DNA of 44,182 nt from a virus (IMGVR_UViG_3300035698_017885:1-44182); one strand, 5' to 3'. Positions 1,757 through 44,165 are shown, counted from the stretch's first letter. Translations and numbers: made by a program. Notes: generated by a model from the letters alone, not told the origin.

Positions 1757-1758
1757 TA

Positions 1759-3366: not shown

Positions 3367-3381
3367 ATCTATTCTCCGTAA

Positions 3382-3603: not shown

Positions 3604-3619
3604 AATAATTAATTCCTTT

Positions 3620-3635: not shown

Positions 3636-3636
3636 T

Positions 3637-14943: not shown

Positions 14944-17900
14944 TTAATTATCATTTATATTAATAGGACCGGCACCAACACCCTTCGTCATCCCTTTTTC
15001 CCTCAATTGTGCCATCGCCCGGTTGTATCGCTCAGCAGTCATTTCGTATGCACTTGCACCACCAGCACCAGTAGATTCGGCAGTAGGTTTCACATCAACA
15101 GTAAATGTCGTTTGCCCAACCTGTTTTACTTCTAAATCTACTACTTTTTCCTTCTTTTCCGCTTTTTCCGTAATGCGACTCATTATTTCCCCCAATTTGT
15201 CACCCATAGCATTGATGGACTCAGAAAGTATAGCAGATATTTCGGCCCTTTTATCTCCAAGATACGATGTTTTGCTTACGCCACTATCTTCTTTCTGTTT
15301 TTTTTCTACTTCAGCTGCATCTTTAGCTTTCTTCGCTGCTTCAACTTTGGCTCGTTCTCTAGCAGCAGGACCAGCATCATCCCACCCTCGGGCATTTGTA
15401 GTGCGGTTAGGAGTTCCTAATCCGCCACCAGATTCAATGTCTACCCCTAATTTTTTCGCTATCGCTTTATTCGCTTTATCTTCAGTATAAACTGGGCTTC
15501 CAGGACTTAATCCTCGTCCTCCTCCACCACCTCTACCTACTCTACCTTCTATGTGAACGCCCATACGCCCAGGCTGTCCAGCCGCTCCAAGCATTTCGCC
15601 TTTCCCTGATAGACCAGCGGCACGACCTCTAACATCCTTAGAGAATCTTCTGCCAACTACACCGGCAGCGTGTTCTCCTTGTATAGTTTCGTATTGTTGC
15701 CTCCCATCACCCAGCCCACGATCTAATTGATAAGCAGATCCACCTAACCCACCAATGCCACCAGGAACACTTCTCCCACGGCTATCAGTAAATGTATTCA
15801 TAGATGTACCAAATTTTACACCACCACCACGACCAACCATTCCTTTTTCTCCACCCCTTCTCATTGCACCACTTTTTCCGGTTCGCATAATATTAAGATG
15901 TTTAACCATCAATCCGGTATTCTTAGTCTGAGTCATGACAATTTTCGAAATCCTACCACTGCCCACTGTCATCGCATTAATTGCACCAACCCAGCCATCT
16001 CTCAAAACTTTTGTAACATCTGCCATTTTCTTTATCACGCCAAGTCTCTTCTGTTCAAGATCCATTAATGTCTTTTGCCAATGGACCTGAGTGTCTGTAC
16101 CAGCGGTAGCTACAACCTGTCGTTTTGCTGCAACGATCTGTTTTGTCAGTGACTCTTCCTGAGAAGCATATTCAGAAGCCAATTTAAGTCTTAATTTAGC
16201 AGAAGCTTTAATCCCCATCATATAGCTGTCCATAATACTTATTTCAGTTGCCGTGATACCAGCAGCCTTTTCTTTCAGAGAAACTTCTTCTTTGTAAGCG
16301 TCTACATCTTCTTGTCTAGCCTGCCTAGTCTTCAAGCGAGCCTGATATACTTTGGTTAACGCATTTCGTTCATCTGCCAATAATTGTTTTGTTAATTGTT
16401 GTACACCCTTTTTACCCTTTAACGCCATCAAAGATTTACGAGCTTCAAGTGCAATTTTTTGCTGTGCCTTTGCTTCTTCATCAAGTTGTTTTATGGTTTC
16501 TCCAACAAGTTTTATGGTTTCTCGTTCTCCGGCTCCTGTCATGCCACCCATTCTTAATAATTCAGCCCTTGCCTGAAGGTGTCCCATAGTCGCCGATGTT
16601 AGTGCCGCCTGTTTTTGTGCCTCTCCTTCAGCCAACTTAACCTTCTCTCTAGCCAATTCTACCTGCTTTTGTGATATCGCAACCAATGTTTTATCTGCAT
16701 TTGCAATATCTGTTTTAGACTGAATGGTCGCCGCATCGAGATTCTTTTGATCTTGACCGTTTTTGGCCATTAGTATTTGCTTCTTTAATATAGAATCTTC
16801 TAAACTAGACCTCTTTTGAATCAACGCATTCCTTTTAATCTCCAGTTCTGACAGTCTCCCTTTTGCTGAATCTTTTCCCTTACCTCCTTTGTCTGTATCA
16901 AGATCTATTGTTTCCTTTTTTATATCTTTAAGTTGGGATTTAATTTTCTCTTTTAACCCTAATTCTTTCTTTAATTCCTCTGCCATTTTTTGTTGGTCTT
17001 TTTTTAGTGTTTGCATCGTATTTGGTGCATCTTTCAAAACAGCAACAGCCTGCTTCCTTACAAGCAATGTAGCTTTCGCTTGATCGGTCAACGCCGATTG
17101 TACCGTCAATATTTGCCGTGAATGAGCAAGATTTTCAGCCTTAGATCCGCCGATTGCTATCAATTTACCAGATAAAGTGTCAAGCAAACCAACTTCAGCA
17201 CCAACTCGTTCAGTAGTTTTACCCTGCATAATTCTAATTTGGTTAAGCAAAGCTAATGTCTCTCGCTTTTCTTTATTTATTGCTTTTTGTAAGAATTGTT
17301 TATGCTGCAACAAAGCAATGCTTCTATTATATAAATTATTTATTTTTATCAATTCTGCCGGAGTAGCCGTATGTGGAGCTATCCCCATTTTGTCAGCAAT
17401 AACTCGTTTGCCTATCTCTGCTTGGCTTTCTCTGCTACGCTTACTAATATCTACACCATCCTTCCCTTCCATCGATTTCTTAGACATAGCATCCCACAAC
17501 TCATCTATACTCATCCCTTCTTTTCTTCTTTGGGTCATCGCACGGCCAGAAGATTGTCCTCCCCACGTAGCAGCCAAACCCCGAGTGGCCTGCCTAAACT
17601 CCATATCAGTTCTATCCACCGCCACATTCAATCTTCGAGTACGACTAACACCTCCCATAACACCGCCTACACCACCTTGTCTTAAAATAGCAGAACGTTT
17701 TTGAGCATATTCCTGATCAATAGTTATACCTTGGATGATCCATTCTCTTCTTGCCCTCTGTCTCGCTGGCTCTTTTTTAGAGTTTTCCACACCTATTTTA
17801 GCAGCCTGCAATAACAGCGTAATACGTTCTTTTTCTCCGGCATTTATTTTTTTATAATCTGACGATTTCATAATTTTTTCAATCATCTTTACAACACTAG

Positions 17901-25648: not shown

Positions 25649-26761
25649 CTATTCTCCAGTAATTGGCAACTCTTCAGAATTCTTATCCTCTCCTTTCTTT
25701 TCTTTCTTCTTGCCATTCTTTCCTTCCAAAGATTTTACAAGTTTTCTTTGGGATACGGCGGCTTGTCTCAAACAACCTTTAACAACAGCGTTTTTGGGGT
25801 CAGTAGCAATTGTAACTCCTGAAATTTCAAAAGGTAAATCAAGTCTTTCGATAACTTTCTCTAATTTAGTAACAAAACCTTTTGGCAAAGAAGTCCCACC
25901 TGCTACTACAATAGACGGTGGAGCAGGGTATTTACTCTTCACTTCAGTAAATTTCGCAGCAAAATGTTTAATAACATATTTGATTAATTCCCCATAATAT
26001 ACATCTAGGGCAAAAATAACATCATCATCCATGTTAAGATTATCAAAATCCAACCCTTTTTCTTTCTTAGCGATAACCTGAGATATATCTATATCAGTTT
26101 GTTCCGACACTTGTTTGTCCACCCAATCGCCGCCCATACTTACCGACATCCCAATAACAGGCAACCCTTTGTAGACCAATACACAATTTGATCTTCCCGC
26201 ACCCCAGGATATTCCGATCCCGCTAAAAGGAGACTCAGTACCATCAGGTTCAATAACTACAGGTTTCTCTGATAATACTATAGCGAGTCCTTCTTCTATA
26301 ACTTTGACATTCCACCCTTTTCTCTCAATCATACTAATTAATCTTGCTTTATGGAAGTTGTTATCAATAGAACCATCTACAGATTCTGATGATACGCATG
26401 TACATACCATTGACTTATCATCTGGGGCATCACCAATTGAAGAGTTAACCAATTCGGCCATAATCAGCATCTTCTTGCTTTCTTTTTTATTAAGGACACC
26501 ACCTTCCATCGGACGACGTAACTTAACATTATCAGGGAACATCATCGCTACTTTTAACGCATCTTCACCAATAACATAATAATGTTCCCCATCTTTAACA
26601 AAATGCCATTTGTTTTGGTTAAGGACATCCTCTATATCTTCTGTCGCGTTAATTTCAACAAAAGCATTACGAATAGTCTTTATTTCTATCTTTTTATCTG
26701 CTGTTGCTTCTGCTGTTTGAAAATTCATCGTACCTGGATCAACACCAATCATTCTGGACAT
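25649..26761 (-). CDS. Actin-like ATPase (MreB/ParM superfamily)
   Basis: 370 residues, start MSRMIGVDPGTMNF, with a GGGAGA ribosome site. Phosphate-1 motif is IGVDPGTMNF (5-14). RRPMEGGVLN (82-91) aligns with the MreB R-P-L-K-D-G-V segment. KVIEEGLAIVLS (153-164) is the connect-1 E-x-x-A helix, and SIVVAGGTSLPKGF (283-296) is the adenosine motif. Phosphate-2 is recognisable (GISWGAGRSN, 183-192), but the usual aspartates are replaced by Ser and Asn. A Lys-rich tail follows residue 340. Actin-like proteins bind ATP and usually form filaments; in phages they position DNA or replication centres. Here it lies between the connectors and a coiled-coil protein, an odd place for a segregation ATPase. 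Confidence 0.8.
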   Translation of the reverse strand: MSRMIGVDPGTMNFQTAEATADKKIEIKTIRNAFVEINATEDIEDVLNQNKWHFVKDGEHYYVIGEDALKVAMMFPDNVKLRRPMEGGVLNKKESKKMLIMAELVNSSIGDAPDDKSMVCTCVSSESVDGSIDNNFHKARLISMIERKGWNVKVIEEGLAIVLSEKPVVIEPDGTESPFSGIGISWGAGRSNCVLVYKGLPVIGMSVSMGGDWVDKQVSEQTDIDISQVIAKKEKGLDFDNLNMDDDVIFALDVYYGELIKYVIKHFAAKFTEVKSKYPAPPSIVVAGGTSLPKGFVTKLEKVIERLDLPFEISGVTIATDPKNAVVKGCLRQAAVSQRKLVKSLEGKNGKKKEKKGEDKNSEELPITGE

Positions 26762-27397: not shown

Positions 27398-27580
27398 TTA
27401 TCGACATCTCCCAGTTCTAGGGTATGGAGTTTGTTCTTCTGGCAAAGCAAGCTCCATAGTATTCGTTCGACTACATTTAGGACAAACATAAGCAATTTTT
27501 CTATCTCTAAAATTTATCTCCAATGTCCCTTCTTCATATTCGGTATTTCCACATAGGCAAATTATCGAAATCTTGGTCAT
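27398..27580 (-). CDS. Small zinc-ribbon protein
   Basis: 60 residues, start MTKISIICLCGN, with a GGGGAGA ribosome site. C-x-C-G-N at residues 8-12 and C-P-K-C at about 33-36 form a zinc-ribbon pair, with beta strands between them, as in small zinc-ribbon proteins. The first 47 bases lie inside the 3' end of the 1000-residue gene in another frame. The overlap, the ribosome site and the cysteine pattern support a real gene. The role is unknown. Confidence 0.7.
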   Translation of the reverse strand: MTKISIICLCGNTEYEEGTLEINFRDRKIAYVCPKCSRTNTMELALPEEQTPYPRTGRCR

Positions 27581-30536
27581 ATTTTTCTCCCCAATATAGA
27601 TATTTATCTACTTCTTCTGTATATTTTATTTTCGCATCATACATCAAATTATCTATTTGGCTTGTTTTCGACGATAATTTTACCATTGCTTTTTTCATAA
27701 TATACAATGCTGCTAATTTTTTTCTGGTTCTCAAAAATGCTGCTTTGATCATTTCTTCTGATGCGGATTTTTTAGTTATTCCACTCAACAATTCTGCGGC
27801 TTCATCTGATCCTATCGGTTTAAACGTCCCTGTCTCCATTTGATTTAAAACATCATCAGCACCCCAAATCGTCAATAATTCTTTTATTCTTTTTTGTTGT
27901 TCGGGTTTGTATGAATGAAGAGGTTTTCTCCTCATCCTCAACATGATAGGAGTTCTCTTCGAAGCCAAACCTCCTGGTTTAGACTTAGCTGACGTTGGAG
28001 AAGGAAGTATCGTCGTATAGTGAGGAACAAAAATATAAAAGAAAGATTTTAATGCCTCAGAAGAAATAGTTCCGTCTCTAAGTCCCTCTAACATAATCTT
28101 GACCCAATTGAAAGCATCCCATCTCAGGTTCTCACCTTTCATACGATCACTCAAAGACCTCTGCCTAGTAACTCTTTCTGCGTTATCCTCTCCAGTCGTC
28201 TCGTCTACTTTCCCATAATTTTTGTAATAATTGGATACATACTCGTCCTCATTCAGAAGAAATTCTTCACTATTCATCACCATTTGTTGTACCTCGGGAG
28301 TAACTGCTTTCATTCCTGTCATCTTTTTCGCTTTATTTATTTCTCTTCTTACATAAACTTTTATAGCGTGAATATCTTCTAAAGACAATCCTCCAAATTT
28401 GAATCCTTTCGCTATCTTATAATCGATCAACAAACCATATATAGACTCATTTGATTCTTCCGGACGAGTCATAATGAGTGAAGCAGCATGACGTTTTAAA
28501 TCTAATATCTCTTTTTTGTATTGTACATATTCACCCACACCAGGAATGTTCTGATGAAGAAAAATATCAGATTTCCCTTTAGATAACAGATATTTGATCC
28601 CTTCTGGTGTGTAATGGTCTTTAGGATTCAATCCAGAATTGATATCCCTCATAACCAAATTCACCAGATCATCAACAGATTGACCTATACGTGAATTTTT
28701 ATACATCTCATACTTCTGTACGATCCTATCAATAGAGGTTAGTTGTCCATCAATGATCCCTCGAAAGTTCTTAACTGTACCAGCCTCGTCAGTATCATCC
28801 GAAGCATCCGAAAGAGACATCTGCATAGACCCCCATCTAGTAACTAACTTCCTAAACTCCAAATCTACTACCCCTCTATCTGGAGCTTTTGGATCAAAAA
28901 TTATTTTCATAAATCCGCGTTTCTCCGCATCTGCTACATTCTTTAACTTACGAGATGTTGGATAGAAGAATTGCATCACTATCTTTCCTTGCCCCTTCTC
29001 TCTTGTATCTGTGACAATAAATCTTCCTTGATTCAACAATAATTGTAACCTCTCATGAAACAAATCAGTTACGAACTTCATGGCATTAGCATTGGCTATT
29101 TTCCCTGGGTCATTCGACAAAACACCCATTCTGTATATACCAGGAATAACGAGATCTGTTACTTCTTTGACTTTCTTGAATTCATGGTCAATGAAATCTG
29201 TTCCCATATTCCTATACGCAACCTCATCTTCCATACTCAACGCTTTACCAGTAGAAGTTAGGGCCTTCACTCCCTCTAACTCATATTTTCCATCCCCTTT
29301 GTCTGGCTCTAATTCTTTCATCTTTAGCATATCGTAACCTTCACCAGCCGCCAATGCACCTACATTCTTTTGAACCCATTGTATTAGCATAGGATCTTTA
29401 TTCTGGATCAAAGCATCTATAAAATTCTCTAAACCATCATTCGGACATTCCATAATCTGGTTTTTAACATCATCATACAATTGAGATTTTTTCTTTTTAG
29501 GGTATGATTTATAAGTAGCCATCAAATCACCACAAGGAAAAGCATAACGTTGTAAAACTCTTGGATCACTCAAGATGAAACCGATTCTTCCATCTAATTT
29601 ATCCACTAAAATATATCGTGGTTCGGCTGCTGTGTCTCTTGCTGGTAGATACCTCTGAGATAAAGCCCTCGTTGTCCCTTCGTCTACAAAATTTGAATAC
29701 TTTTGATACCACGCAGTAAATTGTGGGTCTTGTGAAAGCATATTATTCACAGATATAGTTTGATTGGATACATCTGATATCTCTTCTTCAGGATAGAATC
29801 CCTTTCGTGGTAATCTTTTCCCTTCAACAGTGGCATGTTTATTAATAACATACTCGGCTAATTGTCTCCTAAAATATTCATCAGTAGGAAGACTTACCAT
29901 AACCGTCTGACATGCGTGATCTACTTGTTCTTTTGACAAATTGCGTGCAGCACCCTTAGTTTTGATAACATTATCCATACTCTGTATAAAAAGACTTTTA
30001 AAAGCTTCGTTGTAATCTTTTCCATTCAGGTATAAAATAAACGAGTCTCTATCAAAATTTTCCGGAGGTAAAGAAAATTCAGAAGGTTTTATCATCAGAT
30101 TCTGATGTTCATCATAATAAGTATTATCTTCAATGTATCCATCAAACACAGAATTACCTTGCTCTTGAATCTGTTGAGGTTGCTCAGGAACTCCAGGGGC
30201 AGGATCAAAAGATCTAACCAACCCATGTTTTATTTTTAACATATGTAGAATCTCAATTGCCTTCCCTACAATCTCCACAGATAAATTATATCTCTCGGTA
30301 GGATCTTGTATCACACTTTCTCGTGAAAGGAACTCGTCATTAAGTTTAGAAACTTCCGGAACCATCTCTGTAGCCAATACATGAGGCGGCAATGCAGGGG
30401 TTTCTCTAAATTTTCTATCAAATTCAGATATTTCAGACTGAGCCTGTTCAGGAGTCAGATAATCATGGAATGGCTGTAAAAAAGCCATTTGAGCAAATTT
30501 ATTAATTTTGTTTCTGGATAAATTGAATTTTATCAT
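27534..30536 (-). CDS. Large helical protein of unknown function
   Basis: 1000 residues, start MIKFNLSRNKINKF, with a CGGAG ribosome site. The first 110 residues are helical with an E-F-D-R-K-F-R-E motif; about 110-165 is Gln-rich and disordered-looking. About 260-330 has R-Y-I-L-V-D-K-L-D-G-R-I-G-F. Charged helical segments fill the remainder, and the C-terminal 150 residues are Lys/Arg-rich. There is no Walker motif, no membrane segment and no terminase or portal signature. It sits between PhoH and the zinc-ribbon/actin genes, so an internal virion protein or inner capsid component is plausible, not shown. Confidence 0.7.
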   Translation of the reverse strand: MIKFNLSRNKINKFAQMAFLQPFHDYLTPEQAQSEISEFDRKFRETPALPPHVLATEMVPEVSKLNDEFLSRESVIQDPTERYNLSVEIVGKAIEILHMLKIKHGLVRSFDPAPGVPEQPQQIQEQGNSVFDGYIEDNTYYDEHQNLMIKPSEFSLPPENFDRDSFILYLNGKDYNEAFKSLFIQSMDNVIKTKGAARNLSKEQVDHACQTVMVSLPTDEYFRRQLAEYVINKHATVEGKRLPRKGFYPEEEISDVSNQTISVNNMLSQDPQFTAWYQKYSNFVDEGTTRALSQRYLPARDTAAEPRYILVDKLDGRIGFILSDPRVLQRYAFPCGDLMATYKSYPKKKKSQLYDDVKNQIMECPNDGLENFIDALIQNKDPMLIQWVQKNVGALAAGEGYDMLKMKELEPDKGDGKYELEGVKALTSTGKALSMEDEVAYRNMGTDFIDHEFKKVKEVTDLVIPGIYRMGVLSNDPGKIANANAMKFVTDLFHERLQLLLNQGRFIVTDTREKGQGKIVMQFFYPTSRKLKNVADAEKRGFMKIIFDPKAPDRGVVDLEFRKLVTRWGSMQMSLSDASDDTDEAGTVKNFRGIIDGQLTSIDRIVQKYEMYKNSRIGQSVDDLVNLVMRDINSGLNPKDHYTPEGIKYLLSKGKSDIFLHQNIPGVGEYVQYKKEILDLKRHAASLIMTRPEESNESIYGLLIDYKIAKGFKFGGLSLEDIHAIKVYVRREINKAKKMTGMKAVTPEVQQMVMNSEEFLLNEDEYVSNYYKNYGKVDETTGEDNAERVTRQRSLSDRMKGENLRWDAFNWVKIMLEGLRDGTISSEALKSFFYIFVPHYTTILPSPTSAKSKPGGLASKRTPIMLRMRRKPLHSYKPEQQKRIKELLTIWGADDVLNQMETGTFKPIGSDEAAELLSGITKKSASEEMIKAAFLRTRKKLAALYIMKKAMVKLSSKTSQIDNLMYDAKIKYTEEVDKYLYWGEKYDQDFDNLPMWKYRI

Positions 30537-32102: not shown

Positions 32103-32454
32103 TATTTAATTTTCCAAGATTAAGAATAGACTTATTGTCTTGAATTACTCTTACTTCTCCATTATTAAGAATGAATGAATTTTTTTCATCCAAGACACCA
32201 GCTAATAATTCATAGACTAATCTTTTTTGGATAGCCATCCCTTTCCCTTCAAGGATCAAGGATTTCATTCCATCTGGTAATCCTTGAATTTTCGGGTTAG
32301 TTCCTCTTAATACTGTTTCTTTGAGTAAGGATGATGGAATGAAGAAGAATGATACATCTGGGTTCCATATTACTTCTTGAATCTCTGGTAATTTATCTTT
32401 TACTTTTTCTTTTAATTTTTCATTATCTAGTGGAATATTTTCTTGATATTTCAT
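32095..32454 (-). CDS. Hypothetical protein following IscB
   Basis: 119 residues, start MKYQENIPLDNEKLK. The ATG overlaps the IscB stop as ATGA, and GGAG lies upstream inside the sequence next to the element's right-end hairpin. The N-terminus is charged and helical, then beta-like (DVSFFFIPSSLL). LRGTNPKIQGLPDGMKSL suggests a loop-rich region. No family was recognised. It appears uninterrupted, so the IscB element entered between genes. Confidence 0.65.
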   Translation of the reverse strand: MKYQENIPLDNEKLKEKVKDKLPEIQEVIWNPDVSFFFIPSSLLKETVLRGTNPKIQGLPDGMKSLILEGKGMAIQKRLVYELLAGVLDEKNSFILNNGEVRVIQDNKSILNLGKLNNG

Positions 32455-33707
32455 TTGTTTTCTCCAAGGAGACCCGTTCCTTCAGGGACGGGAGGAATTG
32501 GAGATATAAATCCCATTTCCATTATACCTGCTTGTCTTGAACTTATTCTAATACAATTTTTCTTTATGTTTACAGAATTACTAATTACTTTACCAAATAT
32601 GTCCATTAAAACAAAATATCCAGAACTTCTTTTCCCTTTTACAAAACCAATACCTTTATCGGTTTTAACCAAATCAAACTTCCTTAAACCGAACAATTTA
32701 CCCGTTGGAATTTCCTTTTCACTTCTAACACCTTTAGTTTGTTGATAGTCGCCTTTTGATATGTGCTTTTTATGATAAACAATATTATTCAAATCTACTA
32801 TCTCATCTTCTCCACAACAAACAGAAACAGCATCGTAAAAATGAGTTTTAGGCAAATTTAACACTTGTTCTCGTTTGTATTTAGTCTCATAACCAAAAGT
32901 CTCTTCAAACTTCCAAACTCTTTTCAATTGTGATTTTATGATACTAACTTCTGTAGCATACTTAGTCTTTGACTTTTTACCTTTCAACTTGAATTTGCCT
33001 TCATGTAATTTATCGTGACACTCTCTACATAAAGTAATTAAATTATCAGGAGAATCTGTTCCATTTTTACTTCTGAATATAATATGATGAACATGTAATT
33101 TTCTATTACTCTTTTTACATTTTTGACACTTGTATCCATCCCGGTGTAATATATATGCTTTTACATTATAAAAACCTTTTTGTCTACCATTTTGATAATT
33201 TACAACTTTTGGATTAGAGATTTTATGAATATCAAAACTTGCCGTTTCAACTTTCCATTTTGAAACTGGTAAAATAGATTCGACAAATCTTTTTTCTCTC
33301 AAATGGCTATCTACTTTGCTCCTGATACTTGGAGCTAATCTATTAGTTTTTCTCATTGAAGAACGATTCTGCCATCTTGGTTTACGATAACGGGTTTTTC
33401 TATTTCTTCGAGTCCTACGATACATTTTTCTTTTTTCCATTTTTTTTGATACATCTTGTCGAATTTGAACTTCAGACTGATAAACAACTTCTTCATTTGT
33501 AATACAAGCACAACCAATCGTTTTAGAGCCAGTATCCATTCCAGCAATAACTTCCTGCTTCGATTCTCCAGTAGCCGAAAGTAACTGGATAGTGAAAGGA
33601 ACTTTACAAATCACTTTTGCCTTACCGCCTTGTAAAAGTTTTTTCGCTTTTCTTGGAGAACAAGGCATTAGCGGTTGTTGTCTTTGATTTATGACATATA
33701 CTCTCAA
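32451..33707 (-). CDS. iscB: IscB RNA-guided nuclease
   Basis: 418 residues. The start is TTG at 33707, chosen because AGGAGG lies seven bases upstream and the protein then begins MRVYVINQ, as IscB proteins do. Domains in order: PLMP motif (QPLMPCSP, 11-18); RuvC-I GMDTGSKTIG with D58; Arg-rich bridge helix (about 89-112); RuvC-II with E154; HNH with C194/C197, HVHH at 205-208 and C227/C230; RuvC-III THFYDAVSV with D292. All expected catalytic residues are present, so it should be an active dsDNA nuclease guided by omega-RNA. The C-terminal IPPVPEGTGLL is encoded by the element's right-end hairpin, and the stop overlaps the next gene. No transposase is present, so the element is non-autonomous. 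Confidence 0.95.
   Translation of the reverse strand: MRVYVINQRQQPLMPCSPRKAKKLLQGGKAKVICKVPFTIQLLSATGESKQEVIAGMDTGSKTIGCACITNEEVVYQSEVQIRQDVSKKMEKRKMYRRTRRNRKTRYRKPRWQNRSSMRKTNRLAPSIRSKVDSHLREKRFVESILPVSKWKVETASFDIHKISNPKVVNYQNGRQKGFYNVKAYILHRDGYKCQKCKKSNRKLHVHHIIFRSKNGTDSPDNLITLCRECHDKLHEGKFKLKGKKSKTKYATEVSIIKSQLKRVWKFEETFGYETKYKREQVLNLPKTHFYDAVSVCCGEDEIVDLNNIVYHKKHISKGDYQQTKGVRSEKEIPTGKLFGLRKFDLVKTDKGIGFVKGKRSSGYFVLMDIFGKVISNSVNIKKNCIRISSRQAGIMEMGFISPIPPVPEGTGLLGENK
32473..32492 (-). repeat. Right-end hairpin of the IscB element
   Basis: The minus strand reads CCCGTCCCTGAAGGAACGGG, an imperfect hairpin with loop TGAA. It has the same architecture as the left-end hairpin at 33968-33987, including one C-A mismatch at the same place. 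Such hairpins mark the ends of IS200/IS605-type elements. This one lies inside the end of the iscB reading frame. Confidence 0.75.
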
Positions 33708-33711
33708 GTTA

Positions 33712-33990
33712 TGTCCTCCTCAAAGTAGAGTAATGCGTATCTTTAGCATTGGAGTTACTATAGAGTCCGGCTTTCCCTCGAACGGTTAAAAAGACTTCAC
33801 AATGTGGTTGACTAAGACTCTCGTCTTTGTTTACAGTGCCACGAAAGAGCGAGGAACTGGGACGGCATTCCAAGGTTTCTACATTCTTTTTAACGTTTAC
33901 TAACAACTTTTAATTTCTCCCGTTAGTATTCTGGTCAACAAATTACTCTTAAGAATCACTTCTCAAGCCCCTTCCTTTAGGGAGGGGTTG
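33712..33990 (-). ncRNA. Predicted omega-RNA of the IscB nuclease (HEARO-type)
   Basis: About 280 non-coding bases fill the space between the HNH gene and the iscB start. HEARO/omega-RNAs lie directly upstream of iscB with their 3' end near its start codon. Visible structure: the left-end hairpin at 33968-33987 (CCCCTCC with GGAAGGGG, loop TAAA), a GAGA-loop hairpin at 33814-33827, and GC-rich blocks near 33850-33880. The guide of an IscB omega-RNA is at its 5' end and comes from flanking DNA, here about 33990-34010. A short reading frame inside (33709-33906) is not a gene. Confidence 0.75.
33968..33987 (-). repeat. Left-end hairpin of the IscB element
   Basis: The minus strand reads CCCCTCCCTAAAGGAAGGGG with loop TAAA. 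It follows GTCAACAA, a sequence often seen at IscB/TnpB element ends, and pairs in form with the hairpin at 32473-32492. Confidence 0.8.
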
Positions 33991-34011
33991 TTGACTTATT
34001 TGATTCCTTTG

Positions 34012-35476: not shown

Positions 35477-36133
35477 TTATGATCCCCAAAGTTTTTTTCG
35501 CAGTTTATCGTAAGAATTGAAGCTGTCTTCACGATAGCGGGGATACCTAGTTCCGTAGATGTTCATTTTCCAGTTGGGGTTAGAAAGATGAGCATATTGT
35601 TTTGCGAAATTTACATATGGGATATTGGATCGTATTGTTGCTTTTGGGTCTATTACCTCTGCTTCTTTCTTTAGGAATGTCCAAAACATAGGAGTCGGTA
35701 ATCCGCCGTCTGCCTCAACAAATTTTGTTGTTACTTCTCCAACTTTTTTATTTAATTGTTTATATGTTTTTTTTGCTTTATCGAATTCATTTAATTCATA
35801 AAACCAATATTCATCCCAAGTTACAGTGCCTAAAAATGCGTGATTTACTAAAATAGATACAGCAAATTTTTCTCTTGTCTGCGAGAAAGAGGTTTTTATT
35901 GAGTATGAATCGAAAATATATCTTTGGATATCAAACATGCTAAAACTTTCACCAGTTTGGTTCGTCGCTGGTACACCCTTATCGTTTATGAATATAGGTT
36001 TTTCAGATTTATCGTTTGCAAAAACAGATTTTTCAGGTTCATCTTTTGTAAAAACAGGCTTGAGATCTTCATATAAACTGGTAATGGCAGCATTCTTCAC
36101 CATTTTTTCTTTTGGTTGATTGTCAGAAAACAT
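35477..36133 (-). CDS. Hypothetical protein with N-terminal 10-residue repeats
   Basis: 218 residues, start MFSDNQPKEKMVK. Residues 27-56 hold three copies of a ten-residue unit (PVFTKDEPEK, SVFANDKSEK, PIFINDKGVP). After about residue 65 comes a folded domain with aromatic-rich helices (FDIQRYIFDSYSIKTSF, VTWDEYWFYELNEFDKAKK) and a basic C-terminus. No known family. It lies just upstream of the large structured RNA and downstream of the small tagged genes, but lacks their tag. The ribosome site is weak. Confidence 0.65.
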   Translation of the reverse strand: MFSDNQPKEKMVKNAAITSLYEDLKPVFTKDEPEKSVFANDKSEKPIFINDKGVPATNQTGESFSMFDIQRYIFDSYSIKTSFSQTREKFAVSILVNHAFLGTVTWDEYWFYELNEFDKAKKTYKQLNKKVGEVTTKFVEADGGLPTPMFWTFLKKEAEVIDPKATIRSNIPYVNFAKQYAHLSNPNWKMNIYGTRYPRYREDSFNSYDKLRKKLWGS

Positions 36134-36251
36134 GGCTTTTTTTATTATTTCTGCGTTATTTTTTTGTAATTGTGTTCTTATACCAGTTCATAAATTTTTT
36201 CCATTGTCTATTTACACAATTAATATTACCGAGATACGGGTGATGTTCCTT

Positions 36252-36503
36252 CTATGATAATCTATCCTTAATTTTATCACGAAAATCTTTATAAAAATAC
36301 TCATCGTAGGAGATGACATCGTGGCAAAAACATTCTATGGGTTCTGTTTTATGTGGCCATTTGACTTGATAACCGGCAATATCCAAATCAGGACTATTGT
36401 ACATAGGGTCAAAGTCTACAATTATTCCTATAAACTTTTCATCGGGGGTGTCGTCCGCTGGCCAATTCCATAAAACTTTTGTTCCATTTGGTAAAAATCT
36501 CAT
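36252..36503 (-). CDS. Small tagged protein 13, SH3-like body
   Basis: 83 residues, start MRFLPNGTKVLWNW, ending DFRDKIKDRLS. The body has a small beta-barrel pattern (G-T-K-V-L-W, then F-I-G-I-I-V-D-F, then Y-Q-V-K-W), like SH3/Tudor-like modules. The ATG overlaps the preceding stop (ATGA). The last 11 residues are the shared tag of the cluster. It is the last member before a 118-base gap. Confidence 0.75.
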   Translation of the reverse strand: MRFLPNGTKVLWNWPADDTPDEKFIGIIVDFDPMYNSPDLDIAGYQVKWPHKTEPIECFCHDVISYDEYFYKDFRDKIKDRLS

Positions 36504-36979
36504 TCTAATCTGTCTTTTATTTTATCGCGGAAATTTTTGTGGTCATCATCTGCACGGTTTAAAGTACCATATAAATCTGGTTGTTTATCTGGGCCTGCTA
36601 ATCCAGGCTCGAAATAAACAAATAGACACGAAGTCCCAAGTAAAGGCTCATAGCCATTCCCATCACAATGATGGACGGGAACTTTTACTCCATTTTTTCC
36701 TACGATGTAAATATAAGCATTATTTTGGTTTTTGGGATCTTCGTAAAGATGTTCTGGAGAATACAATTTTTCACGATAGAATTCTATCGCTTCTTCCTTG
36801 TTTTTATGCGGGATTGCGATCCCTATGTTGATACCACACCAAGGGTCTTTAACCCCTCCACGTCCTCCTGATGGCTTCAGATGGCATATGGCGAGGGTGA
36901 AAACGGCAGAGACAGGATGTCTATCCAATTTTTGTGTCTTGTAATTGTAATATTCTATATCTGTATATTCAACTTTCAT
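36500..36979 (-). CDS. Small tagged protein 12
   Basis: About 159 residues from the ATG at 36979 (MKVEYTDIEYYNYK). An in-frame ATG at 37009 exists, but it would overlap the end of the preceding gene. The body includes a Gly-rich W-C-G-I-N-I-G-I-A segment, an H-H-C-D-G-N-G turn and alternating strands. It ends NFRDKIKDRLE. The tag here uses GAC and AAA codons where its neighbour uses GAT and AAG, so it is conserved as protein. Function unknown. Confidence 0.7.
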   Translation of the reverse strand: MKVEYTDIEYYNYKTQKLDRHPVSAVFTLAICHLKPSGGRGGVKDPWCGINIGIAIPHKNKEEAIEFYREKLYSPEHLYEDPKNQNNAYIYIVGKNGVKVPVHHCDGNGYEPLLGTSCLFVYFEPGLAGPDKQPDLYGTLNRADDDHKNFRDKIKDRLE

Positions 36980-36989
36980 TTTTTTTAAC

Positions 36990-37257
36990 CTAATCGCAAT
37001 TGTTCGCATCTATAGTGCGTATGTCCCTTCCAACTCTATCATTTGCCTTTTTAATAAATTCAAAATATTCTTCTTCTGTTTGTGTAAAGACCGCATAAGC
37101 AAGGGGAATGTCTACGGAGTTTGGTCATATCTGGCAATTTTTTTTCTGTAAAAGTCCCTTTAATCTGTAATTTACGGACAGGTTCTTTGTCAGAATAATA
37201 TGACATATCATCAATTTTGTAAAAACCTATTTCGATAATCGCTTTATTATCCTTCAC
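36990..37257 (-). pseudogene. Small tagged protein 11, frameshifted
   Basis: Starts at GTG 37257 (GGAGG nine bases upstream) with MKDNKAIIEIGFY. The first frame runs to about KKLPDM and would then end as a 65-residue product with an untypical tail. Moving one base (around 37115-37127) restores a frame reading PNSVDIPLAYAVF, then EEEYFEFIKKANDRVG and a TAG at 36990. That ending is the shared tag of the cluster. The single-base shift is therefore either a real inactivating change or a sequence error. The tag in the second frame is what identifies the break. Confidence 0.75.
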
Positions 37258-37429
37258 TTAATCTGTCCTCCACTTTTTCTCGGAAAAATAAATGATTGCT
37301 TACCTCTTCTTCATCGTCAGGATGACACCACGCACCACCCTTCACGAAAATCGGTCGTTGTTCATGTTTAATTAATCTTTTCGCATTATTAAACCATATT
37401 TGATATAATGCTTTACCATTGTCTTTCAT
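37247..37429 (-). CDS. Small tagged protein 10
   Basis: 60 residues, start MKDNGKALYQIWF. It contains RPIFVKGGAWCHPDDEEE, very similar to KPVFTPDGTWYHPDDEKE in the next protein upstream, so these two are true duplicates. It ends FFREKVEDRLSEG, the tag plus two residues. The ATG overlaps the preceding stop, and its own end contains the GGAGG of the following gene. Confidence 0.75.
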   Translation of the reverse strand: MKDNGKALYQIWFNNAKRLIKHEQRPIFVKGGAWCHPDDEEEVSNHLFFREKVEDRLSEG

Positions 37430-37641
37430 GTCAATCTGTCCGATGCCTTGTTAAGGAAGTCCACATGATCCTCTCCTTCTTTTTCATCGTCAGGATGATA
37501 CCACGTTCCATCTGGCGTGAATACAGGCTTCCCTCGTATCCGTTCTTTCATCCAATTCGCCAGTGTCCCACCTATAGGAAAAATGGGATATTCTGGAGTT
37601 TTCGAAACTTTAATCTTTCCTGTTGGAGAAATTTTTTTCAT
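37426..37641 (-). CDS. Small tagged protein 9
   Basis: 71 residues, start MKKISPTGKIKVSK, with a basic N-terminus and a KPVFTPDGTWYHPDDE segment shared with its downstream neighbour. It ends VDFLNKASDRLT. The tag's codons (TCG GAC AGA TTG) contain no ribosome-site-like sequence, which argues that the tag matters at protein level. Confidence 0.75.
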   Translation of the reverse strand: MKKISPTGKIKVSKTPEYPIFPIGGTLANWMKERIRGKPVFTPDGTWYHPDDEKEGEDHVDFLNKASDRLT

Positions 37642-37859
37642 ATTAATCTGTCCTCAATTTTATTCAAAAAGTCGGTATAGTCGGGTATGTCACGCATATA
37701 TATATCAATTGTTTGAATCTGACCATTTCTCTCTCTTGTTTCTAACTCTATTATCGGGTTAAAATCAGGAGAAAACTGCTTAATCTGATCTATAATGTCA
37801 TGGTTGTCTATTTCGAATATAGGATTAGGCACAGATACTTTGATATTATTTATGCCCAT
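37638..37859 (-). CDS. Small tagged protein 8
   Basis: 73 residues, start MGINNIKVSVPNPI, a mixed strand/helix body (FEIDNHDIIDQIKQF, then PIIELETRERNGQIQTIDIY). It ends YTDFLNKIEDRLI. Start and stop overlap the neighbouring genes (TAATG upstream, ATGA-type downstream). No family was recognised. Confidence 0.75.
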   Translation of the reverse strand: MGINNIKVSVPNPIFEIDNHDIIDQIKQFSPDFNPIIELETRERNGQIQTIDIYMRDIPDYTDFLNKIEDRLI

Positions 37860-38029
37860 TATAATAATCTATCTCTTACTTTTTCTTGAAAATTTTCAAA
37901 ATCATACATATCAGTACCGGGCATATATTCTACTAAAAATTTTTTCTTTTTATCGTCATAAAATATTTTGCCGTATGCTTCTCTGTTTTTCGTAACTATT
38001 TTATAATATTCTGAACCTTTTATAATCAT
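37859..38029 (-). CDS. Small tagged protein 7 (56 residues)
   Basis: A short gene read directly from the sequence: ATG at 38029, TAA at 37859-37861, 56 residues. It starts MIIKGSEYYKIVTK and ends FENFQEKVRDRLL. The middle is Lys-rich (Y-D-D-K-K-K-K-K-F). It fills what would otherwise be the only hole in the tagged-gene run, overlaps both neighbours by one to four bases and carries the tag, so it is very likely real. Confidence 0.75.
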   Translation of the reverse strand: MIIKGSEYYKIVTKNREAYGKIFYDDKKKKFLVEYMPGTDMYDFENFQEKVRDRLL

Positions 38030-38217
38030 TCTTCAACTTCCATAAACGTTTTAAAAGGTTTGCCAATTCTATCTTCCATTTTTTCGCGGAAAGAGATGTA
38101 GTCATAATAAATACCTTTTTCATAGTCTTTAACGTCAACTATTATATCATCAATTCTATATGTGGGTATCCAACCTTTAACAGAATCAAACCCATTATCT
38201 TTAGTAATATCTTTCAT
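38026..38217 (-). CDS. Small tagged protein 6
   Basis: 63 residues, start MKDITKDNGFDSVK. The body IPTYRIDDIIVDVKDYEKGIYY is a strand followed by a D-Y-x turn, like tagged proteins 1 and 3. The tag YISFREKMEDRIG is followed by 13 extra residues. The start is preceded by AGAGGA from the tag codons of the gene before it, so tag DNA also acts as ribosome site here. Confidence 0.75.
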   Translation of the reverse strand: MKDITKDNGFDSVKGWIPTYRIDDIIVDVKDYEKGIYYDYISFREKMEDRIGKPFKTFMEVEE

Positions 38218-38720
38218 CCTAATCTATCCTCTACTTTGTCAATAAACTCTTCTTCCCCTTCGGAAAGAATAGGAGTTCCTCCAATGGGTAATTTATAATC
38301 CATTTGCTGTTTTTCGGTGCATAGTAGTATTCCAACTTGTTCTGTGGCTAACGTGCAACGAATTACATATAAAATTACTACGTCATATTCTGTAGGTTGA
38401 CTTACCTTGATATGACAATCATAGGCGTTCCTGCACTCTCTTAATATGGCATCTTTAGTAGGTAAACTGGCTAAATGTTCTTTTCTTCGAGATAGAACTT
38501 GCCCATTAGAGTCGAATGTGAAAGTAGAAACTATTAATTTTTCACCAGTTGTTGATGAACCAATGCCACAACAATGATTTGGCCAAATAGCCCCACCTGC
38601 TGGACAATCTCTTTCTGTGAATAATAGTTCCCTAAAAATAACTTTATTCGGTGCTACTGTTTTACAAAAAGCATCGAAATCATCTTTATCTTTTTTTGTA
38701 AAATTACAAAGTGTTGTCAT
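38214..38720 (-). CDS. Small tagged protein 5
   Basis: 168 residues, start MTTLCNFTKKDKDDF, with GGGGAC upstream. The body is a mixed alpha/beta domain with several cysteines and a G-G-A-I-W-P-N-H-C-C-G-I-G segment around residue 42, with strands VVILYVIRC and QVGILLC. It ends EEFIDKVEDRLG. The body is not similar to the others seen here. Function unknown; no catalytic motif was assigned. Confidence 0.75.
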   Translation of the reverse strand: MTTLCNFTKKDKDDFDAFCKTVAPNKVIFRELLFTERDCPAGGAIWPNHCCGIGSSTTGEKLIVSTFTFDSNGQVLSRRKEHLASLPTKDAILRECRNAYDCHIKVSQPTEYDVVILYVIRCTLATEQVGILLCTEKQQMDYKLPIGGTPILSEGEEEFIDKVEDRLG

Positions 38721-38895
38721 GTTTGTCCCCTTCTTCTATATGATTTGTCGGAAAAATATCGGGACCTAATCTGTCAGCGATTTTTGCTCTCAAACCAAAA
38801 TAGGCATCTCTGTCTTCGCGTTTTATCACGGCCCCATGAAACCAACATTCACTATCTGAATAAGTATAACCTGGGACTCTGCGATTGTACATCAT
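38704..38895 (-). CDS. Small tagged protein 4
   Basis: 63 residues, start MMYNRRVPGYTYSD. The motif YFGLRAKIADRLG sits at about 32-44 and is followed by 19 more residues, so here the tag is internal. The L-R in place of F-x within the tag makes this a divergent copy. It overlaps the next gene by 17 bases. Confidence 0.7.
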   Translation of the reverse strand: MMYNRRVPGYTYSDSECWFHGAVIKREDRDAYFGLRAKIADRLGPDIFPTNHIEEGDKHDNTL

Positions 38896-39128
38896 CCTAA
38901 TCTATCCTTGATTTTTTCCTGAAAGGCTACGCAATCCATATAAAGGTCTATGTCAAAATCATTGACATCAATCGATGGACCATCAGTTGTACCCTCAGTT
39001 ATATATTTCATACTTGTAATTGTAAATTTAGCGGAACTATCAACAGGATCATGTTGCTTAATGGAGTCAACCTCAATTACGAGTCTTAATGGTTTAAGAG
39101 AATCAAATTCGTTGTTTTTAGGGTCCAT
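38892..39128 (-). CDS. Small tagged protein 3
   Basis: 78 residues, start MDPKNNEFDSLKPL. Two strands (LRLVIEVDSI, KFTITSMKYI), then SIDVNDFDIDLYMDC leading into the tag VAFQEKIKDRLG at the very end. The D-V-x-D-F/Y approach to the tag is shared with proteins 1 and 6, suggesting the conserved module may be about 25 residues in these members. Confidence 0.75.
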   Translation of the reverse strand: MDPKNNEFDSLKPLRLVIEVDSIKQHDPVDSSAKFTITSMKYITEGTTDGPSIDVNDFDIDLYMDCVAFQEKIKDRLG

Positions 39129-39130
39129 AT

Positions 39131-39583
39131 TTAATTATCGGAAGAAGATATCCTATCCTTAATTTTATCTAGAAAATCATCATATCCGTCAGCAAATTCT
39201 AACAATGTCTTATCTATATAGAAAAAACTTTCATTAGATGGTAATGAATCCCAATGTACATAAATTTCAGTATCATTATTATGCTTCCCAATGGTCTCTA
39301 TGGTCTCTATAGTTCCTGCTTCACAAAATTTCAGATAATCCATGTCCCCGGGATGTAAAACAAACCAATTCTCCGATTTTCCACGAATCGGGTTAGATAA
39401 ACGAACTCTATCTCCAACTTCAAATTCTCTAATTATTTTAATATTATCCTTAATTCTGTCTTGAACATATTTCCAATGTTCTTCTTCTTTATTTAAACTT
39501 TTTTTGCCGAAAAAAGAAGTGATTCGACCACCACAAGATTTGATTATCTGTACCACTTTATCATATGTGAGTTTGACAGTCAT
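39131..39583 (-). CDS. Small tagged protein 2, SH3/KOW-like body
   Basis: 150 residues, start MTVKLTYDKVVQII, with a GGAG ribosome site. HWKYVQDRIKDNIKI (about 37-51) looks like a second, internal tag copy. Residues 50-125 are barrel-like (FEVGDRVRLSNP, GTIETIETIG, EIYVHWDSL). It ends YDDFLDKIKDRISSSDN. Two tag copies flanking a small barrel suggest module duplication. Confidence 0.75.
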   Translation of the reverse strand: MTVKLTYDKVVQIIKSCGGRITSFFGKKSLNKEEEHWKYVQDRIKDNIKIIREFEVGDRVRLSNPIRGKSENWFVLHPGDMDYLKFCEAGTIETIETIGKHNNDTEIYVHWDSLPSNESFFYIDKTLLEFADGYDDFLDKIKDRISSSDN

Positions 39584-39620
39584 TTAATGTTCTCCATTTT
39601 TTATATGCTTCATAGTCAAT

Positions 39621-39642
39621 CTTATACATAAACATCGGCAAA
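39621..39642 (-). promoter_or_regulatory. Candidate promoter ahead of tagged gene 2
   Basis: The minus strand reads TTTTGCCGATGTTTATGTAT in the 102-base gap between tagged genes 1 and 2. It shares TTGCCGAT with the motifs at 3620 and 20904. It would drive the main run of tagged genes. Confidence 0.35.
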
Positions 39643-39685
39643 ATGAAGGGGCAAAGACAGACTCAAATCTATAATTTTGTCCGTT

Positions 39686-39922
39686 TTATGTCCAATCCAA
39701 TGGGTCCTTGTAATTAGGGACATAATTAGGAATTTCCTCATCGCTTATCATATCATACTCTTGTAATTGTTGCGAGGTGAGTCTGTCTCTGACCTTGGTA
39801 TAAAAATCTACACATGAATCATAGTCTTCTTGACTCACTTCTATTCCGTCTATATAACAGACACGATAAAATTGATACCCTGAATTATTTGTTTGCTGTT
39901 GCTTTTTTAGTTTCTTTTTCAT
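39686..39922 (-). CDS. Small tagged protein 1
   Basis: 78 residues, start MKKKLKKQQQTNNS, with GGAG upstream and the ATG overlapping the endonuclease stop (ATGA). Strand YQFYRVCYIDGIEVS leads into EDYDSCVDFYTKVRDRLT, the tag, followed by 25 further residues, acidic and Tyr/Pro-rich. It is the first tagged gene in transcription order. Confidence 0.75.
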   Translation of the reverse strand: MKKKLKKQQQTNNSGYQFYRVCYIDGIEVSQEDYDSCVDFYTKVRDRLTSQQLQEYDMISDEEIPNYVPNYKDPLDWT

Positions 39923-40971: not shown

Positions 40972-40998
40972 CACTAAAAACATTGGTGTTTTTAAGTG
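40972..40998 (-). terminator. Hairpin at the end of the intein-bearing gene, possible terminator
   Basis: The minus strand forms an 11-bp stem with one bulge (CACTTAAAAACA with TGTTTTTAGTG) and loop CCAA, overlapping the stop codon. A seven-T run follows only about 40 bases later, so it is not a standard intrinsic terminator. Confidence 0.35.
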
Positions 40999-42773
40999 CC
41001 ACTGCCGAACACATAACGAAACCAGCGAGAATTATGACATTTGATACCATTGGCAATTAAGTTTTGTGTAGAAGGGACTTCCATATCGTAAGTTTCTACT
41101 TTGCCCTTTGGTTTAATGCTGATAATTCTGTCATCTACTAATCTGTCATTTTTCAAACACAATAGTTTATCGCCAATCACCAATGAACTCAATGGGAGAT
41201 ATGTACCGTCCACATCAAACAAATGGTCTTTACTCGCTTCTACTGAAAATCCTAATTTAGTTTTAATCTCAAACACTTTTTTAAATCCTGATTTCCAGAT
41301 CCTGGAAACTGGAACAAATTCCAGATTATTATCCTTTTGTGAAAGGATAGAAATATTTTTGCCACGGCAATACAAATCGTAAAGTATATATGTTTGTATA
41401 TCCAATTGTATATACTTTTCAGAATCTACTATACATAAGTGCTTGGTATTAAAGGAGATACAGCGGCCCCCCGGTAAAGTATAGCTAGGTATCGAAACGG
41501 CCATCGTTGACGGATACGGCCCTCTTCTTTTTTCATCGAAATACAGTTTCCATTCTGTCTCGAAATTTTTCTTAATTGTATCGAAATTCCCAAAGACGCT
41601 ACTTAGTGAATCTTCACCACCGAATACTTCTCTTGGTTGTTGAAAATTAAGGCATAGCATCATTTTTCTTAGTGCATCGGCTGCTGCATGGGCGATTACC
41701 GCCATTGTATAGGCATCAGGGATTGATTCTACGGTATAGTTACTAACAGGAGGCATTGCGTTAAATCCATTAACGGCATCGACCAGATATTGATACAGTT
41801 CGTTATCGGTGAACCATCTGAAGTTATAATCAACATAGATTTTGTCATATGAAGTCATAGGATAATCAAATATGACATATCCCTTAAAATAATTAACTTC
41901 CAAGTCATCAATAATCATATTATTTCTATCGTTTCTATAGATCCTAACTCCTGAACTTTGATTCCAATTTGGAAATGACAATTGATATTGGGAATAGCCT
42001 GGGAAGGGTCTTGCTTGTTCATCATAAACAGGAATATTTTGAGCACACGATAATCTATATTCTAATGCTTCTCTTAATACAGTAGCACGGGAGTCATAAA
42101 TAGGTTGTGTTGTTGATTCAACATCATCTGACACCATAATTCTTTGTAATTCATATTCTTCAACGCTACCTATTGTATATGTCCATACAATATCATATTC
42201 TCCGGTATCTTGGTTGGAGTCTAAAGTCCATTCATAGACATAATAACCTGTTCCTACTTTTTCTGGAGCAGCGACTATAATTTCTTCTTCGCTTGGATCT
42301 CTGATGGAGATATTAACGATATTTGCATCAACGGCATCACCATCCAGGTGGGTGATTTTCAAATACAGGAATGCCGTTGAGCTAGTTTTGAATGTACCTT
42401 TATAGTCTACAACTGCTCTGATTTTAACATCTTTGATGGTGGCGAATGGTCCAACTTCATCGACTCTATATATAGGGGTTGCAGCGGGAGTTGGTAGGAT
42501 TTTCCATGCTATTTTATATATTAATCCTGGTGTAATTGGGAAGATGTATTCATATCTTCCTGGGTATGGATTATTTACTGCTGATCCGGCTGCGGCCACT
42601 ATATTATCAGGGTTGATTGTTTTTGCTCCGTATGTTCCATCTTCTGAATCTAACGTGACGGAATATGCATTTCTATCTTCACATCCTGATTCATAATCAA
42701 GATATACCTTTCTTTGGGAGGATATTTGGATTTTTCTTTCTTTATTAAGATTGGTTTTATAATCTTGTGGCAT
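40992..42773 (-). CDS. Virion-type protein precursor interrupted by a mini-intein
   Basis: 593 residues as translated, start MPQDYKTNLNKERKI, with an AGGAA ribosome site. Residues 1-437 are the N-extein: beta-rich domains (Ig-like around 110-215), then helical repeats with NELYQYLVDAVNGFN and MAVIAHAAADALRKMM. The intein covers 438-581, and the C-extein is only 12 residues (SRWFRYVFGSGT). Splicing would give a 449-residue protein joined at PGGR-SRWF. The extein is not a recognised enzyme, unlike most intein hosts; its location beside a LamG/serine-stalk protein suggests a structural role. Function is not assigned. Confidence 0.8.
   Translation of the reverse strand: MPQDYKTNLNKERKIQISSQRKVYLDYESGCEDRNAYSVTLDSEDGTYGAKTINPDNIVAAAGSAVNNPYPGRYEYIFPITPGLIYKIAWKILPTPAATPIYRVDEVGPFATIKDVKIRAVVDYKGTFKTSSTAFLYLKITHLDGDAVDANIVNISIRDPSEEEIIVAAPEKVGTGYYVYEWTLDSNQDTGEYDIVWTYTIGSVEEYELQRIMVSDDVESTTQPIYDSRATVLREALEYRLSCAQNIPVYDEQARPFPGYSQYQLSFPNWNQSSGVRIYRNDRNNMIIDDLEVNYFKGYVIFDYPMTSYDKIYVDYNFRWFTDNELYQYLVDAVNGFNAMPPVSNYTVESIPDAYTMAVIAHAAADALRKMMLCLNFQQPREVFGGEDSLSSVFGNFDTIKKNFETEWKLYFDEKRRGPYPSTMAVSIPSYTLPGGRCISFNTKHLCIVDSEKYIQLDIQTYILYDLYCRGKNISILSQKDNNLEFVPVSRIWKSGFKKVFEIKTKLGFSVEASKDHLFDVDGTYLPLSSLVIGDKLLCLKNDRLVDDRIISIKPKGKVETYDMEVPSTQNLIANGIKCHNSRWFRYVFGSGT
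41031..41462 (-). other. Mini-intein, 144 residues, no endonuclease domain
   Basis: Starts with Cys (CISFNTKHL, block A). Block B is GFSVEASKDHLFDVDG with the D-H pair; block F is VETYDMEVPSTQNLIANG; block G is IKCHN followed by Ser. Splicing nucleophiles are Cys1, penultimate His, terminal Asn and Ser+1, so self-splicing is expected. The DOD or HNH insertion usual between blocks B and F is missing. Position between Arg437 and Ser582 of the precursor. Confidence 0.9.
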
Positions 42774-42821
42774 TTTATATTCCTATTTCTTGCGAAAATT
42801 CAATGTAGTTTATATTTCTTA

Positions 42822-44165
42822 TTAACTGTCCCAGAATCCTCCTATATTTCCTCCTGCGATTTTTATCTCATTTAATTCTACGACAGATTCTCCTGTTAAA
42901 ATTATGACTTCATCGCCATCTCCTAAAGGTTCATTGCCAGTTGTTATATATCTTAATGGCCATGGTTCAGATGAACTTGAAGATTCTGAAGAAGCAGAAC
43001 TTTCAGAACTTAATGAAGAACTACTAGAACTCGGAGTATTAGATGACTCAGAACTTTTTGAAGTTGGAGAACTACTACTCGAACTTGTAGAACTTGGAGT
43101 ATTGGATGACTCTGAACTTTCTGAACTTTCAGATGTTGGAGAACTACTACTTGATGAAGTGGAGCTTGGAGTATTAGATGACTCAGAACTTTCTGAAGTT
43201 GGCGAACTACTACTCGAACTTGTAGAACTTGGAGTATTACTACTTTCTGAACTTGCTGAACTTTCACTAGTTGGTGAACTACTACTCGAACTTGTAGAAC
43301 TTGGAGTATTAGAACTTTCACTGCTACTTGAACTTGAAGACGAAGAACTATTATCATCGAAAAATTCATAATATAATTCATTTCCAACAGGTGGAGTTAT
43401 CATTCCCCACGGATCATCCCATAGGTTTTGAATTTCTTTATCTGTTTTTGGGACATGATACATATACGCCATCGCAACAGTGCCATAAAATTGGACTTCG
43501 TTGTATGAAGTACTAATCCTGGGAATTGTCGCGGGCATTTCCCCTAGAACTGCATGACCATTAATGCTGCCTGGGGTTACTACTTTTTTTTCACCATCAT
43601 ACCATATATCAAAATATGAACCATTCCAATTAACAGTAACATTATGCCATTCCCCGGCAGTAATGGTATCAGTATTGGAACACCATGCGGTGAATTTTTC
43701 ACCAATAGAACCAATTGTAATTAATTCGTTAGTAAGTTGTGTTGTATTGTCATTCCCGAGTATTATACCACCATATCTTGGATTCAGTCCTGAGCCAAAA
43801 GGTGACATTCTATCAGTAACACTAGTTATGTTTTCTGCTGGATTAAACCAACAACCAAAAGAATATGGAAGGATGCCCAAATCAGTTGGGGGAGACATAT
43901 CTGGACTAGTTGTATATAAAACAGAGAAATCATCAGGTTCGTTGATGAATTTTAATACTGGGCCAACGGTATCGTCGTATCTCCATCCAACACCAGCATG
44001 GGGTTCCCAGAACCTTCCGTATCCTCCGCGTCTACTAACATTTTGAGTGGCAGTCCCATTTCCTTCCCACAGCGGGAACAGTATTGTCAATCCACGGATA
44101 TTAGGATGATATTTGTTTAATCCGGGATACCACTGTATAGGTTTTTGGGGTATAAATTTTGCCAT
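42822..44165 (-). CDS. LamG-like adhesin/fibre protein with serine-rich stalk
   Basis: 447 residues, start MAKFIPQKPIQWYPG. Residues about 20-265 are a concanavalin A/LamG-like domain (YSFGCWFNPAENI, GEWHNVTVNWNGSYFDIWYDGEKK, AYMYHVPKTDKEIQNLWDDP), the pattern of carbohydrate-binding LamG domains. About 270-398 is a Ser-rich stalk with S-N-T-P-S-S-T-S repeats. The last 50 residues (about 399-447) are a small domain ending GGNIGGFWDS. Such layout fits a receptor- or glycan-binding virion protein. Confidence 0.8.
   Translation of the reverse strand: MAKFIPQKPIQWYPGLNKYHPNIRGLTILFPLWEGNGTATQNVSRRGGYGRFWEPHAGVGWRYDDTVGPVLKFINEPDDFSVLYTTSPDMSPPTDLGILPYSFGCWFNPAENITSVTDRMSPFGSGLNPRYGGIILGNDNTTQLTNELITIGSIGEKFTAWCSNTDTITAGEWHNVTVNWNGSYFDIWYDGEKKVVTPGSINGHAVLGEMPATIPRISTSYNEVQFYGTVAMAYMYHVPKTDKEIQNLWDDPWGMITPPVGNELYYEFFDDNSSSSSSSSSSESSNTPSSTSSSSSSPTSESSASSESSNTPSSTSSSSSSPTSESSESSNTPSSTSSSSSSPTSESSESSESSNTPSSTSSSSSSPTSKSSESSNTPSSSSSSLSSESSASSESSSSSEPWPLRYITTGNEPLGDGDEVIILTGESVVELNEIKIAGGNIGGFWDS
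42965..43350 (-). repeat. In-frame serine repeat array, 63/72-base units
   Basis: Copies of the sequence encoding the S-N-T-P-S unit start near 43031, 43094, 43166, 43229 and 43301, so spacings alternate 63, 72, 63, 72 bases (21 and 24 residues). All keep the reading frame. This suggests duplication of a double unit followed by drift. Confidence 0.8.

Follow-up and report, generated by a model that had tools for sequence, protein, structure and literature searches.

Encapsulins and microcompartments are familiar examples of loading by a short terminal peptide, which is common to diverse cargo and is recognized by a single shell protein. Among phages, the closest described case is that of the T4 internal proteins IPI, IPII and IPIII, which are highly diverse and small, are encoded by clustered genes and carry one capsid-targeting sequence that is needed to reach one structure (PMC3012670). 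The locus that we analyze here resembles the T4 system in having a short tag common to otherwise diverse small phage proteins, so the view of the first-pass annotation that no system of this form has been described needs to be amended: the form has a precedent, while for the present tag and its arrays we found none, and a literature search for the tag string gave no match. The differences are considerable. The tag of T4 is N-terminal, starts with MKT(Y/F)xEF, is found on few proteins and lacks the DRL motif, overlapping with the present tag, which comes from an uncultured phage, in Y-x-E-F only; no homology to the T4 signal was found, since an HMM of our tag scores negative on ipI, ipII and ipIII. 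With respect to encapsulin and microcompartment loading, the carrier here is a phage and the cargo consists of tiny orphans arranged in arrays.

The window, namely the whole stretch of DNA that was analyzed, is a virus record of IMG/VR of 44,182 bases (IMGVR_UViG_3300035698_017885:1-44182). Its minus strand encodes, between positions 36252 and 39922, 12 small tandem ORFs with an intact tag in frame plus one interrupted copy (table 1), and the run of 13 tagged genes noticed at first is consequently real, the thirteenth tag lying in a gene of interrupted frame. In the latter the tag occurs in another frame of the gene starting at 37257, which is how the interruption is recognized; an assembly error, decay or a programmed frameshift are possible causes. 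Neighboring genes of the array overlap mostly by 4 or 1 bases, and a scan for promoters and terminators found no clear excess over shuffled sequences. The description of every gene as ending, or nearly ending, in the tag holds for nine of them, in which the tag lies five residues or less from the end, and fails for those at 38026, 38704 and 39686, where 12, 20 and 30 residues follow, respectively.

Table 1. Genes of the tagged array in the window and an untagged flanking gene
Position	Strand	Feature	Observation
35477..36191	-	Untagged flanking gene	N-terminal MNWYKNTITKK resembles the second terminal tag; frame change at A7 run
36252..36503	-	Tagged gene, 83 aa, end DFRDKIKDRLS	Marginal SH3/KOW-like body, leave-one-out barrel E=0.018
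36500..37009	-	Tagged gene, 169 aa, unique body, end NFRDKIKDRLE	ORF and motif
37010..37257	-	Interrupted-frame gene	Tag EYFEFIKKANDRVG in out-of-frame downstream part, DNA match 37033-37058
37247..37429	-	Tagged gene, 60 aa, tag FFREKVEDRLSEG	Body akin to 37426..37641
37426..37641	-	Tagged gene, 71 aa, DFLNKASDRLT	Body akin to 37247..37429
37638..37859	-	Tagged gene, 73 aa, DFLNKIEDRLI	Motif
37859..38029	-	Tagged gene, 56 aa, NFQEKVRDRLL	Motif
38026..38217	-	Tagged gene, 63 aa, SFREKMEDRIG then 12 residues	Motif
38214..38720	-	Tagged gene, 168 aa, Cys-rich unique body, EFIDKVEDRLG	Motif
38704..38895	-	Tagged gene, 63 aa, variant tag YFGLRAKIADRLG then 20 residues	L replaces F
38892..39128	-	Tagged gene, 78 aa, AFQEKIKDRLG	Motif
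39131..39583	-	Tagged gene, 150 aa, N-terminal extension, SH3/KOW-like barrel and DFLDKIKDRIS	Leave-one-out barrel E=1.2e-7
39686..39922	-	Tagged gene, 78 aa, DFYTKVRDRLT then 30 residues	Motif

Scanning DNA for the tag followed by a start codon retrieved two other virus contigs, IMGVR_UViG_3300035698_011774 (henceforth G1; loci L002, L028 and L029) and IMGVR_UViG_3300009529_002382 (G2; loci L003 and L030-L033), which raise the total to 45 intact tags in 44 genes. G1 has 21 tagged genes with 22 tags between 35856 and 41124, while G2 has four tagged genes at 8885-10218, six at 16501-18229 and a further one at 28003-28257, in which the tag is N-terminal. Tagged genes thus co-occur in clusters in two more virus contigs, as a docking signal predicts. 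Positions 1-7140 of the window match 58027-68107 of G2 with 80-89% protein identity, the two being related phages. What G1 has in common with both of them is chiefly the tagged genes, sequence of mobile elements and another terminal tag, the second one discussed below, and no structural gene common to G1 and the window or G2 was found beyond a weak match of low complexity.

Other features of these contigs may be recorded here. The minus strand of the window encodes an IscB-like protein (32451-33995, Pfam RRXRR and HNH), in a phage, with a HEARO RNA upstream of it (33765-33995) that scores above the Rfam cut-off; a near-identical stretch lies in G1 at 13590-13911, beside a remnant of the C-terminus of the protein. 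On the same strand are an actin-like protein (25649-26761, Pfam Volactin E=3.5e-62), with relatives in two huge phages, the genomes of which measure 485 and 595 kb (LR745208.1 and LR756511.1), and a protein with an intein-like C-terminal part (40992-42773, ending in ..LIANGIKCHNS, judged by eye), with a similar stretch in G2 at 41205-43145. Two structural-type proteins (7160-14887 and 42822-44165, minus strand) contain long serine-rich repeats. Beside the arrays of G2 lie genes that, by eye, are NeuB-like, CMP-sialate synthetase-like and glycosyltransferase-like (L003 3155-3997 and 5489-6241; G2 1-7000).

The 45 copies define a 12-residue element with the consensus [YHW]-x-[DEN]-F-x-[DE]-[KR]-[IV]-x-[DE]-R-[LIM], in which F is retained in 44/45 and the K/R, D/E and R positions in 45/45 copies, an invariance that is partly imposed by the search pattern. 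Searching every ORF of the three contigs with a tag HMM, all filters off, yielded no further or degenerate tags; the tag is limited to small genes, and the larger ones are without it. Such a motif does not occur at chance levels: its DNA form matches the window 12 times, always on the coding strand, and the two related contigs 16 and 8 times, against none for a reversed control pattern, and 0.003 matches would be expected from amino-acid composition in the C-termini of 44 such proteins. In the core of the tag, synonymous sites are saturated (pS 0.78) and residues are kept (pN 0.13), which implies that selection acts on the peptide, as the first reading of the codons had proposed. The tag is also predicted to be helical, for the AF2 model of a barrel protein places it in a helix after the barrel (pLDDT 84), and that of the two-tag protein has a helix at both tags, though at low confidence (pTM 0.22).

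In functional terms, why would so many different small proteins of a phage carry the same peptide? The tag is real, under selection at the peptide level, portable and mostly C-terminal, although kept also at the N-terminus, and the interpretation that we prefer, to which we assign a probability of about 0.5, is that it constitutes a modular docking helix bringing many small proteins to one partner. If so, a group of large phages would use arrays of small genes with coupled translation to produce many different effector-like proteins, among them SH3/KOW-like barrels, one tryptophan-repeat protein and numerous orphans, and the common helix would recruit each of them to one putative shared partner, which most likely would be some machine of the phage or the host that is present during infection; the body would do the specific job, while the tag would provide the address. 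We infer that the tag binds something, that its partner is a single one and that host or defence functions are what the bodies act upon, the tagged small proteins being probably host- or defence-directed.

The precedent of T4 raises the alternative that the tag is an encapsidation signal, by which the small proteins would be loaded into the head and later injected, in the manner of the capsid-targeting sequence. The architecture is the same as that of the T4 internal proteins, with diverse small bodies, one terminal tag and clustered genes (PMC3012670), and an ArdC-like anti-restriction gene (a weak, sub-threshold Pfam match) adjoins the array of G1. Nevertheless, we consider this alternative unlikely. 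The T4 signal is N-terminal, whereas the present tag is mostly C-terminal, and the arrays of G2 have sugar and helicase genes as neighbors rather than genes for the head. Moreover, a better candidate for head targeting exists in the second terminal tag, the N-terminal MNWY[KR]..IK.A, which is carried by four different genes of G1 beside the array (L002 6654-9548, minus strand), one of them ArdC-like, and which is possibly a head-targeting signal. Because the match with the T4 sequence stops at Y-x-E-F and the MNWYK..IK.A tag fits head targeting better, we retain encapsidation only as a rival to the docking helix.

Somewhat less probable again is that the tags bind each other, so that mixed oligomers would assemble from one array. 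The conservation of a helix could also mean self-association, its alternating charges (D/E-K...D/E-R) could self-pair and the majority of tagged genes belong to one co-translated operon, with overlaps of 4 or 1 nt; against this, the strict invariance of the arginine would exceed the needs of a generic coiled helix.

The bodies bear upon another possibility, namely that all of them are diverged copies of one barrel-plus-helix gene and hence form an ordinary paralogous family, which we regard as very unlikely. Once the tags were stripped, leave-one-out HMM analysis assigned 20 of the 44 bodies clearly to a barrel family, the one at 36252 being marginal; ten of these barrels are in G1, nine in G2 and one or two in the window. 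Every barrel found is tagged, no untagged one having been found in the three contigs. However, 23-24 bodies, including the tryptophan-repeat protein and most of those in the window, fail the barrel HMM and form about 19 groups with undetectable mutual similarity; for the 36500..37009 body, neither tblastn nor HMM found relatives. The bodies are thus not all homologous and a single ordinary family is unsupported, even if part of the pattern reflects ordinary duplication, given that about half of the bodies belong to one fold family. The claim of mostly unrelated bodies survives for the 23-24 that are not barrels, and has to be restricted for the other half, a divergent barrel family found mainly in G1 and G2. 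Similarly, one of the two barrel-like bodies reported in the window is clear (39131) and the other marginal (36252), while of two reported duplicates one pair is sound (37247/37426) and the second only weak (38026/38892, E=0.018).

The barrels themselves are very divergent members of the small SH3/KOW-like type, and an AF2 model shows a barrel followed by one C-terminal helix, the tag. Profile comparison matched them to the KOW domain of Spt5 (E=2.7e-5), their scores for CarD/TRCF RID and Xrn1 SH3_12 were below the curated Pfam cut-offs, and the top PDB matches of the model in Foldseek were small barrels, none of them at E<=0.001. About half of the bodies therefore share a fold with the small SH3/KOW/Tudor-like barrels (Spt5/NusG KOW, uL24, PcrA/UvrD Tudor, CarD RID), all weakly, below every Pfam cut-off and with no common functional residue demonstrated. 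To our knowledge, none of these families has such a tag. PADLOC, PHROG and Pfam returned no functional calls for the tagged bodies tested, except for the PHROG of the tryptophan-repeat protein, which has no assigned function.

Three observations make it a portable module, as opposed to the tail end of a single family. First, the body of G2_8885 is a tryptophan-repeat protein (PHROG 3532, E=2.8e-43; 36-42% identity with its relatives over 88-95% by tblastn) that is present also in Bacillus phages G and BpSp and in Listeria phage LPJP1, and the members examined in these three phages end without the tag. Second, G1_39591, G1_39768 and G2_28003 have the tag at the N-terminus, one of the three being tagged at both ends; these genes are homologous, and their N-terminal position is consequently inherited. 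Third, the barrel family has a mean identity of 67% in the tag and 24% in the body, and its tags are about as similar to those of other bodies (0.60) as tags are within the two groups (0.65 and 0.57), which points to one tag. The original proposal of one tag on different cargo is borne out in so far as the tag is portable between unrelated bodies.

It is scarcely probable that the DNA of the tag, rather than its peptide, is the functional element, whether it serves the next overlapping gene as a ribosome-binding site or allows genes to be shuffled by recombination, with the peptide as a by-product. Codons such as AAG GAT AGA TTA do place AGGA about 9 nt upstream of many of the next starts, and in some cases the tag could plausibly serve at the same time for ribosome binding of the following gene (AAGGAT...ATG). 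Furthermore, the invariant arginine of D-R is encoded by AGA or AGG in 45/45 tags, though CGN makes up 28-32% of the arginine codons (AGR 68-72% in genome use); the CGT and CGC codons initially noticed in the tag belong in fact to the variable position after F. Such an exclusive use of AGR is more than protein selection alone explains, and could derive from common descent or an extra constraint at the RNA level. Yet the peptide has been preserved in spite of saturation at third codon positions, the tag persists at N-termini and where no gene starts directly downstream, and its sole out-of-frame copy sits in the interrupted gene. The AGGA-forming codon occurs in only 12/45 tags, without a significant link to coupling (10/29 vs. 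2/16, p=0.16). An element acting as nucleic acid is largely refuted by this evidence, and a role restricted to ribosome binding is unsupported. Least likely of all is a degradation tag setting the lifetime of early proteins, for although many bacterial degrons are C-terminal and the tag lies mostly at the very C-terminus, it occurs also at the N-terminus or before as many as 30 residues in the window, and it is charged, with conserved internal D/E and R and no fixed last residue.

Beyond G1 and G2, four DNA patterns of the tag produced only isolated matches in unrelated proteins among 2.9 million viral contigs, as did one pattern among 85,000 cellular genomes; the fully degenerate search confirmed its matches by a related body, so that arrays with other bodies could escape it. 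Phage records contained no DNA or protein relatives of the array, of the 1000-aa gene at 27534-30536 or of the two longest tagged proteins. The tag array is absent from phages LPJP1, BpSp and G, as well as from LR745208.1 and LR756511.1, the huge phages with the related actin, which have generic barrels.

The tag arrays are real, conserved at the protein level and rare, and their recurrence in two other virus fragments suggests that the tag is a signal of the plug-in type, by which many small proteins would reach one common partner. Tentatively, and with more doubt than confidence, we propose that they represent an undescribed address-tag system of large phages, in which a 12-residue F-x-x-K-I-x-D-R-L helix, usable at either end and open to being added to new bodies, would take dozens of unrelated small proteins, from several arrays per genome, to a single structure or machine made by the phage. 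The function of most small phage genes is not known, and a tag common to many of them would assign these together to one pathway, offering a handle for finding the partner and a sequence mark for such proteins in other phages. It would also provide a second, independent and mostly C-terminal case of the principle embodied by the internal proteins of T4.
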